Assembly: GCF_020523795.1 (NCBI RefSeq)
Contig: NZ_JAJALI010000009.1
Coordinates: 62,001-126,000, forward strand
Source of the DNA: Ancylobacter sp. Lp-2
Lineage (GTDB): Bacteria; Pseudomonadota; Alphaproteobacteria; Rhizobiales; Xanthobacteraceae
DNA length: 64,000 bases
Reading direction: 5' to 3'
The translations under genes and the position numbers were made by a program. A model generated the notes under the pieces. The model worked only from the letters and a program-made list of their open reading frames with translations, was not told the DNA's origin and did not search any database. Below are positions 46,421 to 55,583 of the stretch, piece by piece (position 1 is the stretch's first letter; the number at the start of each line of letters is the position of its first letter).

Positions 46421-47008
46421 TCACGGGCGTTCGAAGGCGGAACGCAGCCGACCGATCTGGCCGGCCACCGCATTGACCGGGCGCTCGCCGGGCCGGCGCG
46501 CCCGTAGCGCCGCGTCGAGCTGCCGCACCCGCCGTTCGAGGTCGAGGCTGCGCAGGATCAGCGCCGCCAGCGGTGCCGGCAGCCGCGGATCCGGCTCGGG
46601 CGTGGGCGCCTCGGCGCCGAGATCGACCTTGTCGGCCTCGCGGCGGGCGGTCTCGGCGCTCATGTCGCCCTCGCTCACCGCCTTCTGCAGCAGCAGCCAG
46701 GAGGTGAGGTTCATCAGCCGCGTCGACAGAAGGCGGCTCTCCTCGGCATAGGCGGCCTGCGCGCGGCGCTCCAGCGCGGCGCAATCGGCCCGACCGGGCC
46801 CGTCGAGATAGTCGGCGCTGGCGTCGATCAGCGCGATGCCCTCGGCGTACAGCGCCGCGAAGGCCGGGGAGGCGACCCGCCGCGCGGCAAGGTTCACCAG
46901 TCGCCCGTCAGCGGCGTCCGCCGGCGCGGTCGGCCCGTGCCCGCCGAGACCCGCCCCGTCCGAGCTCGATCCGCCGAAACCCCGCCTGTCGGGTGTCCGC
47001 TTCGCCAT
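46421..47008 (-). CDS. DUF1465 family protein
   Basis: 195 residues from ATG 47008 (MAKRTPDRRGFGG). The conserved core runs from RVASPAFAALYAEGIALIDA through ERRAQAAYAEESRLLSTRLM to NLTSWLLLQKAVSEG. No known biochemical function. A longer frame upstream exists but the family N-terminal core begins after the chosen ATG. The upstream 335 bp carry a predicted sRNA and CtrA site. Confidence 0.88.
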   Translation of the reverse strand: MAKRTPDRRGFGGSSSDGAGLGGHGPTAPADAADGRLVNLAARRVASPAFAALYAEGIALIDASADYLDGPGRADCAALERRAQAAYAEESRLLSTRLMNLTSWLLLQKAVSEGDMSAETARREADKVDLGAEAPTPEPDPRLPAPLAALILRSLDLERRVRQLDAALRARRPGERPVNAVAGQIGRLRSAFERP

Positions 47009-47164
47009 CTCCGTCACTCCGCGCCGGCACGGCGGCTTCGCCACGCCCGATTCGCCCGCCCCGCCCGCAATCCCGAGCATGATGTCGCGCGCGCCGGGCC
47101 GGCTGTCCAGTCGCACGCGACGGACGGCGCCAATGTCCCCGCAACCCACCATCCGGGTGCAGGG

Positions 47165-47258
47165 CCAAAAAAGAGCCGCCCGCAGGCGGCTCGATAGGTG
47201 AAGACAGGGAGGCGTCAAACAGAGTGACAGGCGCCACTCGCGTCCAGATGCTGGACTG
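47165..47258 (-). ncRNA. Predicted CtrA-controlled small RNA with intrinsic terminator
   Basis: No protein gene lies between DUF1465 and DUF1192 (47009-47343). On the minus strand, a -10-like CATTAT (47270-47265) is followed by a segment of about 94 nt: hairpin GTCCAG-CAT-CTGGAC (47256-47242), an unstructured CCTCCCTGTCTTCACCT stretch, then terminator GAGCCGCC / GGCGGCTC (47192-47173) and six T residues. The pyrimidine-rich CCTCCC segment could pair with ribosome-binding sites. Family not recognised; the 5' end is inferred from the -10. Confidence 0.5.
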
Positions 47259-47264
47259 TCCCCG

Positions 47265-47297
47265 ATAATGCTTCGGAAAGCTTAACGCGCCGTTAAC
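47265..47297 (-). promoter_or_regulatory. Perfect CtrA box overlapping a -35 region
   Basis: TTAA (47282-47285), CGCGCCG (7 nt), TTAAC (47293-47297) is an exact TTAA-N7-TTAAC CtrA site. On the minus strand it covers the position of a -35 element (ACGGCG, a poor match) 17 bp from CATTAT at 47265-47270. This is the usual layout of a CtrA-activated promoter, here pointing to the predicted sRNA. Confidence 0.65.
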
Positions 47298-47343
47298 CCA
47301 TTGGACGGCGCGGCGGGCGGGCGGGGGGAGGCGGGTGCCGGTC

Positions 47344-47544
47344 TCATCGCTTGAAGAAAGCGTCCGCCGCCGCCCGCGAGGAACGCTTGCCGCTGAGCGT
47401 GGCGCGCAGCCGCGCGATCTCGGCTTCCAGCAGCGTGATGCGTTCCTCCAGCTCGGCCTCCGACAGGGTGGAGAGGTCGGCGCCGATCTCATGGGCCGCC
47501 GGCAGCTTAGCCGGGCGGATGCTGAACGGATCGTCCTCGATCAT
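47344..47544 (-). CDS. DUF1192 family protein
   Basis: 66 residues: EDDPFSIRPAKLPAAHEIGA followed by a coiled coil (LSEAELEERITLLEAEIARL) and a basic tail (SSRAAADAFFKR). This is the DUF1192 pattern of alphaproteobacteria, usually found near DUF1465. Probably a short coiled-coil protein; function unknown. Its own promoter must lie toward 47545-47732. Confidence 0.9.
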   Translation of the reverse strand: MIEDDPFSIRPAKLPAAHEIGADLSTLSEAELEERITLLEAEIARLRATLSGKRSSRAAADAFFKR

Positions 47545-49467: not shown

Positions 49468-50073
49468 ATGACCGCTGCTTCGACACACCTCGACAAACCC
49501 TCGCTCCGCGCCGCCGCCTTGGCCCGCCGCGCCGAGTTGGATGCGCCCGCCCGTGCTGCCGCCTCTGCGCGCGCGGCTGCGCATGCGCTCGCCTGGCTCG
49601 GCGACGTCGAGGGCGAGGTGGTGGCACTGTTCGCCCCCATCGGTACCGAGATCGACACCGGCCCGCTGGCCGCCGGCCTGCGCGCCGCCGGGGCGAACCT
49701 TGCCTTGCCGGTGGTGGTGGACATGAAGGCGCCGCTGCTGTTCCGGCTGTGGAGCGCCGGCGTGCCGTTGGTCGAAGTGCCCGGTCCCGGCCGTTTGAGC
49801 ATTCCGGTGCCGCCGGAGAGCGCGCCGCTGGTGATACCCGACGTGCTGGTCGTGCCGCTTGCCGCCTTCGATCCGGGCGGGCACCGGCTCGGCTATGGCG
49901 GCGGCTATTACGACCGCACGCTGGCGGCACTGCGGCGGGCGAAGCGGGTCGAGGCGGTCGGCTATGCCTTCGCGGTGCAGGAGCTTCCCTGTCTCCCCGC
50001 CGAGTCGCATGATGAGCGGCTCGACGCCGTCGTCACCGACGCCGGCATCATCACGGTGACGGCGGAGGACTGA
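49468..50073 (+). CDS. fthC: 5-formyltetrahydrofolate cyclo-ligase
   Basis: ATP-dependent conversion of 5-formyl-THF to 5,10-methenyl-THF. 201 residues. The substrate and ATP motifs are visible in VVDMKAPLLFRLW, and PLAAFDPGGHRLGYGGGYYDR is the family signature. The link to 6S RNA immediately upstream is conserved (E. coli ssrS-ygfA). The ATG at 49468 is 10 bp after the RNA stem. Confidence 0.95.
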   Translation: MTAASTHLDKPSLRAAALARRAELDAPARAAASARAAAHALAWLGDVEGEVVALFAPIGTEIDTGPLAAGLRAAGANLALPVVVDMKAPLLFRLWSAGVPLVEVPGPGRLSIPVPPESAPLVIPDVLVVPLAAFDPGGHRLGYGGGYYDRTLAALRRAKRVEAVGYAFAVQELPCLPAESHDERLDAVVTDAGIITVTAED

Positions 50074-54542: not shown

Positions 54543-54896
54543 CTAGTCGTTCACGACGTGCCAGACGCCGTTGCGCCCGTCGCCCGCCTTTTCGCCGGCC
54601 TTCTTGTCGCCGGCGAAGTAGTAGAGCGGCTTGCCGTCATAGGCCCATTGCATGGCGCCGTCCTTGCGCGGCACCAGCGTCCAGCCGGTCTTCATCGCGT
54701 CGCCGGTCTTGCCGAGATAGGGCGGCCAGTTGGTGGCGCAGGCGTCGTAGCAAGCCGACATGCCGCCGGTGTCCTTGTCGAACACATAGAGCGTCTTGCC
54801 GCCGGCGCCGGTCAGCATGCCGGCGGCGAGTGCCGGGCCGGCAAGCAGCAGGGTACCGGCCGCGAGGCCGGCAAAGCGGGTAAAGCTGTGGGTCAT
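54543..54896 (-). CDS. COG4315-type secreted repeat protein
   Basis: 117 residues: signal peptide (ends ALAAG, about 26), then GGKTLYVFDKDTGGMSACYD and a second copy-like KDGAMQWAYDGKPLYYFAGD, the pattern of the lipoprotein-repeat family of unknown function. It has one CxxxC (SACYDACATNW). A CtrA site lies in the upstream gap. Function unknown. Confidence 0.88.
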   Translation of the reverse strand: MTHSFTRFAGLAAGTLLLAGPALAAGMLTGAGGKTLYVFDKDTGGMSACYDACATNWPPYLGKTGDAMKTGWTLVPRKDGAMQWAYDGKPLYYFAGDKKAGEKAGDGRNGVWHVVND

Positions 54897-54932: not shown

Positions 54933-54949
54933 TTAATCCCGCGTTAACC
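54933..54949. promoter_or_regulatory. Perfect CtrA box upstream of ruvC and the COG4315 gene
   Basis: TTAA (54933-54936), 7 nt TCCCGCG, TTAACC (54944-54949). It lies 37 bp before the minus-strand gene and 86 bp before ruvC. No clear -10 was found on either side, so direction is open. Confidence 0.65.
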
Positions 54950-55034: not shown

Positions 55035-55583
55035 ATGGCGTCCGCTCCGATTCGCATTCTCGGCCTCGACCCCGGCCTCCGCCGCACCGGCTGGGGGGTG
55101 ATCGAGGCCGCCGGGACCAAGCTCTCCTTCATCGCCTGCGGCACGGTGCTGCCCCCGGAGGAAGGCACGCTCGCCGAGCGCCTCGCCGTGCTGCATCGCG
55201 AGCTCGCCGCTGTCATCGCCGCCTTCGCGCCCGACGAGGCGGCGGTCGAGGAGACCTTCGTCAACGTCAATCCCGCCTCGACGCTGAAGCTCGGCCAGGC
55301 GCGCGGGGTGGTGCTGCTCACTCCCGCCCTTGCCGGGGTGCCGGTGGCCGAATATGCGGCGCTGCTGGTGAAGAAGACCGTGGTCGGCGCCGGGCGGGCG
55401 GAGAAGGCGCAGATCCGCATGATGATGAAGGTGCTGCTGCCGCAGGCGGATTTCGAGACCGACGACGCGGCCGACGCGCTTGCGGTCGCCGTCACCCATG
55501 TCCAGCATAGGGGCGCGGCGGCGCTGCGCGCCTCGTTCGAGAAGCGGGTGACGGCCAAGGTGGCCAAGGCGGCGGCACGATGA
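55035..55583 (+). CDS. ruvC: Crossover junction endodeoxyribonuclease RuvC
   Basis: 182 residues. Resolves Holliday junctions. Catalytic acidic residues are Asp12 in [14 protein letters not shown], Glu in [11 protein letters not shown] and two Asp near [13 protein letters not shown]. First of ruvC-ruvA-ruvB; the start ATG at 55035. A CtrA box lies 86 bp upstream. Confidence 0.97.

Follow-up and report, generated by a model that had tools for sequence, protein, structure and literature searches.

The RNA family BjrC1505 (Rfam RF02356) was reportedly founded in a 2012 paper by Madhugiri, to judge from reference lists. Our literature search, mainly of openly available papers, returned no report tying BjrC1505 to CtrA or rcdA and no description of its function.

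Two described RNAs resemble the one considered here in other respects. CcnA of Caulobacter crescentus is a cell-cycle non-coding RNA that is expressed after CtrA accumulates (PMC8959179), and for its own C-rich loop a pairing with ribosome-binding sites has been proposed (PMC8959179). EcpR1 (SmelC291) of Sinorhizobium meliloti is a rhizobial sRNA, conserved in the order, that acts on cell-cycle mRNAs (PMC4414408). The circuit around CtrA also includes RcdA, a protease adaptor that furthers the proteolytic breakdown of CtrA in both S. meliloti and Caulobacter (PMC4433202). In Caulobacter, rcdA is reported to be activated by CtrA (PMC4433202), and CtrA control of this gene has been predicted for one group of alphaproteobacteria (PMC2877005). 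In each of the three lineages of agrobacteria rcdA has multiple start sites, and a CtrA site may lie farther upstream than that of Caulobacter (PMC10469942). CtrA motifs precede rcdA in S. meliloti (PMC3616915), where, according to Pini et al., CtrA ChIP sites lie upstream of the gene and its expression is unaltered by CtrA depletion (PMC4433202).

A BjrC1505-family RNA between DUF1192 and an rcdA-like gene

A preliminary description had proposed a CtrA-driven small RNA between a DUF1465 and a DUF1192 gene in a 64-kb window (the whole stretch of DNA that was analysed) of the Ancylobacter sp. Lp-2 genome. What it observed was confirmed, and its interpretation is supported by the comparisons given below and largely holds. 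It had missed that the RNA is already registered as RF02356 and that DUF1465 is the RcdA family. The features of the locus, all on the minus strand, are as follows.

46421–47008, minus strand: rcdA-like gene (DUF1465, PF07323); predicted start codon
47167–47258, minus strand: predicted sRNA of about 92 nt, RF02356 BjrC1505 (cmscan), with a putative 5' end near 47258
47167–47192, minus strand: intrinsic terminator, an 8-pair stem (47192–47173) followed by TTTTTT; two-sided changes in 6 of 8 pairs
47204–47219, minus strand: conserved single strand UUUGACGCCUCCCUGU, the proposed seed (conservation, alignment)
47222–47239, minus strand: stem-loop 2 (fold; two-sided changes in 3 of 5 pairs)
47242–47256, minus strand: stem-loop 1 (fold; two-sided changes in 5 of 6 pairs)
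47265–47270, minus strand: putative –10 hexamer CATTAT (sequence), 11 nt from the box edge
47282–47297, minus strand: CtrA-type box TTAA-N7-TTAA in the –35 position, palindromic, with the exact TTAAC form on the plus strand
47344–47544, minus strand: DUF1192 gene (PF06698, E 3.8e-22), upstream of the RNA

The match to RF02356 covers the full model (1–140) over 47166–47308 of the minus strand with 82 bits against a cut-off of 50 (E 6.8e-14), so the candidate belongs to a known family; it is the single copy in this genome. The same window carries a 6S RNA (RF00013, 49303–49458, 90.9 bits) just upstream of an ORF (49468–50073, plus strand) that by eye resembles 5-formyltetrahydrofolate cyclo-ligase, and an alphaproteobacterial two-piece (permuted) tmRNA (RF01849, 9345–9699, 311 bits).

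The family is widespread in the order. Matches at E ≤ 0.001 were found in 166 of the 199 genomes sampled from it (139 above the cut-off), and at E ≤ 0.01 in 106/121 genomes of another of its families. A sample of the class gave matches in 40/385 genomes, 17 of them above the cut-off and 4 of the 40 from this order, while none of 14 control genomes, Caulobacter vibrioides among them, was matched. An exact scan of named genomes with the 18-nt seed returned at least 118 stretches; those listed include Bradyrhizobium, Mesorhizobium, Devosia, Bosea and Roseibium, and also Sneathiella chinensis (order Sneathiellales). Two of the stretches lack both the box and rcdA and may be chance matches, and in a Bradyrhizobium MAG the seed is oriented opposite to rcdA and DUF1192, perhaps through an assembly error. 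A DNA similarity search of plasmid records gave no match. In another family, a fuzzy search for the core at 20 weak loci landed for the most part in unrelated places and recovered two clear copies of the S. meliloti type; all of these are excluded from our counts. The 33 order genomes of 199 that gave no Rfam match count against the explanation we prefer.

Of 131 loci fetched, 128 have a placeable core; two had none and one was out of range. The preliminary description of a structured segment and of a minus-strand terminator with six T residues proved correct: the predicted fold of the 94 nt has an energy of –39.1 kcal/mol (z –3.9; 0/200 shuffles equally low), and a terminator search found one site against 0.4 expected from shuffles. 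In 124/128 loci the core is followed by five T in a row. The covariance that had been suggested as a check is present. In an alignment of 97 sequences, picked from 124 with coordinates after thinning of near-duplicates, the three helices have 94.4% of their cells paired and two-sided changes in 14/19 pairs; none of 500 shuffles reaches any of five measures, and slid structures drop to 34–53% paired. The position of helix 1 was set by eye from the alignment, and RNAalifold alone returns stem 2 and the terminator, with compensatory changes in 9 of 13 pairs. The 5' hairpin that the Rfam model draws over the box was rejected, having 4–5 of its 5 pairs in 44/122 loci against 24% in shuffles. The model starts at 47308, so that the family as registered takes in the box region; were the RNA itself to start there, the box would lie inside the transcript, a point against the explanation we prefer.

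The gene downstream encodes a protein that scores 137.6 bits against PF07323 (cut-off 25) and matches the NCBIfam RcdA model NF051867 over nearly its full length (E 4.2e-40), its 137.3 bits lying under that model's cut-off of 170; we take the product to be RcdA-like, uncertified as an equivalog. ORFs do cross the RNA segment; the flanking genes with Pfam support, those of DUF1465 and DUF1192, both lie outside. This arrangement is conserved. By tblastn, which diverged copies may escape, rcdA follows the RNA on the same strand in 113/129 loci (102/109 inside the order) and DUF1192 precedes it in 94/129 (80/109). In the set of named genomes, among the matches listed and in stretches with room, the figures are 91/96 and 70/106. 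Comparison thus establishes that the RNA belongs to the family and that it has the box, the structure, the seed and the synteny; the conserved CtrA box and the linkage to rcdA are what the analysis adds, the RNA family itself being already known.

The CtrA-type box and the rcdA neighbourhood

The sequence TTAACGCGCCGTTAAC lies at 47282–47297, exactly as had been described, and reads TTAA-N7-TTAAC on the plus strand; in the direction of the RNA it is GTTAACGGCGCGTTAAG, a near-palindrome. Exact TTAA-N7-TTAAC occurs twice in the window and in none of 100 dinucleotide shuffles. The other occurrence (54933–54948) lies between two ORFs, one resembling a small secreted protein (54543–54896, minus strand) and one that is ruvC by eye (55035–55583, plus strand).

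Upstream of the RNA, TTAA-N7-TTAA with at most one mismatch was found in 123/128 loci, against 6.7% of mononucleotide shuffles. The best box per locus has 0 mismatches in 55, one in 68, two in 3 and three in 2, the search region being the 75 nt preceding the RNA, where a few loci have their best match off the usual distance. The stretches found by the seed alone tell the same: among the matches listed, 109 of the 113 of testable length have the box with 0–1 mismatch, species overlap between these and the fetched loci being possible. The preliminary description had paired the box with CATTAT, and this hexamer is in place at 47270–47265 of the minus strand; its 17-bp spacing depends on where counting starts, the distance from the box edge being 11 nt, which is also the commonest among relatives (43 of the 122 loci with the box at the expected distance). 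Conservation in relatives, proposed earlier as a check, is borne out for the box and the T run and is weak for the –10: a TATAAT-like hexamer with at most two mismatches occurs in 94/122 loci against 51.8% of shuffles. The conserved promoter element is the box, not the –10. A sigma-70 consensus scan of 46900–47500 found no promoter, as expected if the box replaces the –35, though this result and the weak –10 also count against the explanation we prefer. A conserved TTAA-N7-TTAA at –35 is what CtrA-activated promoters have, and this locus has it.

We consider it probable that the sRNA gene is real and that its promoter responds to CtrA; we are less certain of its mode of action. The gene would be an independent member of the BjrC1505 family, about 92 nt long on the minus strand and with its own terminator before rcdA, and the CtrA box would form the –35 region of its promoter. 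Phosphorylated CtrA would bind TTAA-N7-TTAA and turn the RNA on during the CtrA-active phase of the cell cycle. Both transcription and CtrA dependence we infer from conservation; since the box is kept in most relatives examined, the cell cycle probably controls an sRNA beside rcdA.

The box might instead serve another regulator, or be a plain A+T-rich promoter element of a real sRNA that CtrA does not control. Its near-palindromic form would suit this, and CtrA binding is shown just for the S. meliloti region, which has two boxes (PMC4433202). The seven-nucleotide spacing and both TTAA halves are nevertheless kept in 123/128 loci while the flanks vary, and TTAA-N7-TTAA is a published CtrA motif (PMC12403871). 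We hold such a promoter improbable.

A different doubt concerns the gene downstream. The segment could be the 5' leader of rcdA, with the box driving that gene and the terminator acting as an attenuator or stopping transcription in part, in which case the short RNA would be mainly a by-product or a switch controlling rcdA within a negative-feedback loop of CtrA. The usual presence of rcdA on the same strand looks leader-like and counts against an independent gene, and the CtrA motifs before the S. meliloti gene, the control predicted for a group of alphaproteobacteria and the activation by CtrA in Caulobacter, all cited above, agree with it. The locus is not always built this way, however. In four loci from other orders of the class (L116–L119) an O-acetylhomoserine sulfhydrylase (by eye) stands in place of rcdA, with box, seed and terminator intact, and in L046 a response regulator (by eye) does so, with the box (one mismatch), seed and terminator kept. 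As box and RNA persist where another gene replaces rcdA, the RNA is more than a leader of rcdA. In the main set, 6/113 loci have a further exact box in the interval from the terminator to rcdA, against 0.2 expected, and so do Sinorhizobium and Shinella (2794–2808 in L539; also in L540 and L543). Conservation is as strong in the single-stranded seed as in the terminator, and the reported insensitivity of S. meliloti rcdA to CtrA depletion likewise speaks against a leader. On balance a leader seems unlikely to us, and we return to the independent sRNA gene.

S. meliloti offers a diverged version of this gene. In strain Ak57 the order is DUF1192, TTAA-CCGCAAA-TTAA, an RNA that contains CTCCCTGTTTTA and ends in a GAGCCGC terminator, a second exact box TTAA-CCCTTTC-TTAA, and DUF1465; the RNA copy scores 27.2 bits against RF02356, under the cut-off, yet is syntenic. 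The 3.7-Mb record used (CP090106.1, L539) is named as plasmid pSymB of S. meliloti Ak57; since both rcdA and rpmE are on it, it may be a mislabelled chromosome. Shinella has the same layout, Methylobacterium bullatum has a variant with TTAG-N7-TTAA, and no comparable layout was seen by eye at the Sphingomonas locus. We hypothesize that an sRNA promoter could explain part of the CtrA binding before S. meliloti rcdA; this stays a hypothesis because two boxes lie in the region.

The proposed seed and its possible targets

The RNA would act in trans, its two hairpins and terminator exposing the single-stranded UUUGACGCCUCCCUGU, which would pair with purine-rich ribosome-binding sites and so block translation. 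UUUGACGCCUCCCUGU is exact in 110/128 loci and CTCCCTGT in 123/128, and the former is retained in L108, L109, L116 and L119 despite a different sequence of stem 2. In the window sequence taken alone, some of UUUGACGCCUCCCUGU can fold into a weak hairpin. A single strand so conserved is what a pairing seed might be expected to look like. The CCTCCC segment, pointed out earlier as possibly complementary to ribosome-binding sites, is present at 47212–47207 of the minus strand, inside the most conserved stretch; the search established no pairing target for it.

Against 30 shuffled seeds, pairing to the leaders of ctrA and gcrA (30 each) ranked 12.6 and 12.3 on average, which is no specific signal. 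Control leaders behaved similarly (DUF1192, 91 leaders, mean rank 11.2; rcdA, 113 leaders, 10.3), with a slight general pairing bias across all four sets. The long complement of the seed, with up to three mismatches, has 11 sites in the bacterium's own genome (two for the reversed control); one is the sRNA gene itself, and none resembled a gene start by eye.

A more suggestive pattern emerged when 41 genomes of the order were searched for starts with ACAGGGAGG, a fully complementary Shine-Dalgarno sequence 2–9 nt before ATG. In a sample of 86 sites from 90 fetched stretches, with 57 ORFs of at least 80 residues, about 19/57 ORFs encode substrate-binding proteins (SBPs) by eye, and SBP families head the Pfam matches listed. 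This could mean that the CCUCCCUGU seed silences mRNAs of transporter SBPs in the manner of AbcR, tying nutrient uptake to the cell cycle, a special case of our preferred explanation, so that the chances of the two overlap. Two other strong sites gave SBPs in 3/27 ORFs (Fisher p 0.035), and the shorter site CAGGGAGG in the bacterium's own genome gave three among 20 ORFs by eye. The ORFs are, however, a sample of the matches listed. Moreover, in 36 genomes of the class taken as lacking RF02356 (seven listed without a match, 29 presumed so from their absence among the 40 listed matches) the proportion is 6/24, not different from 19/57 (p 0.60). The link is thus unspecific to bearers of the RNA and cannot be credited to it. 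We rejected transporter mRNAs as RNA-specific targets, keep them as a lead, and regard the AbcR-like role as a long shot.

The ribosome-binding site ACAGGGAGG often precedes SBP genes in alphaproteobacteria, whether the sRNA is present or absent.

Implications and comparison with described small RNAs

Our broadest proposal is a tentative one, about which we are rather more doubtful than confident: BjrC1505 may be an ancient output of the CtrA circuit throughout the order, an sRNA timed by the cell cycle and kept beside rcdA that, in parallel to CcnA, represses mRNAs by means of a nearly invariant seed against ribosome-binding sites. In rhizobia it would take at least some of the CtrA binding now ascribed to rcdA. 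If so, CtrA binding without control of rcdA in rhizobia would follow, because the binding would belong partly to the sRNA promoter. The Rfam family gains a testable regulator, a logic of its locus and a seed. If CtrA drives BjrC1505, the alphaproteobacterial cell-cycle circuit would have a conserved RNA branch beyond Caulobacter, and the rhizobial CtrA site before rcdA may need reinterpretation as an sRNA promoter.

The likeness to CcnA and EcpR1 is one of kind, and identity with either is ruled out by locus. CcnA lies at the replication origin (PMC8959179) and EcpR1 between divK-pleD and rpmG (PMC4414408), whereas the window RNA has DUF1192 and DUF1465 as its neighbours. The reported targets of CcnA are ctrA and gcrA, and the window RNA's seed gave no specific pairing signal with the leaders of either. 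MmgR/suhB (RF00519) and SorX (RF02784) have a 3' layout of UCUCCCU followed by a terminator, as does the S. meliloti locus, which scores below threshold against both models (21.3 versus 41 and 17.7 versus 46.6); the similarity is likely confined to the 3' part, and the window RNA matches neither model in Rfam. With BjrC1505 it shares sequence, stems, seed and terminator, and at the family level the two are alike.
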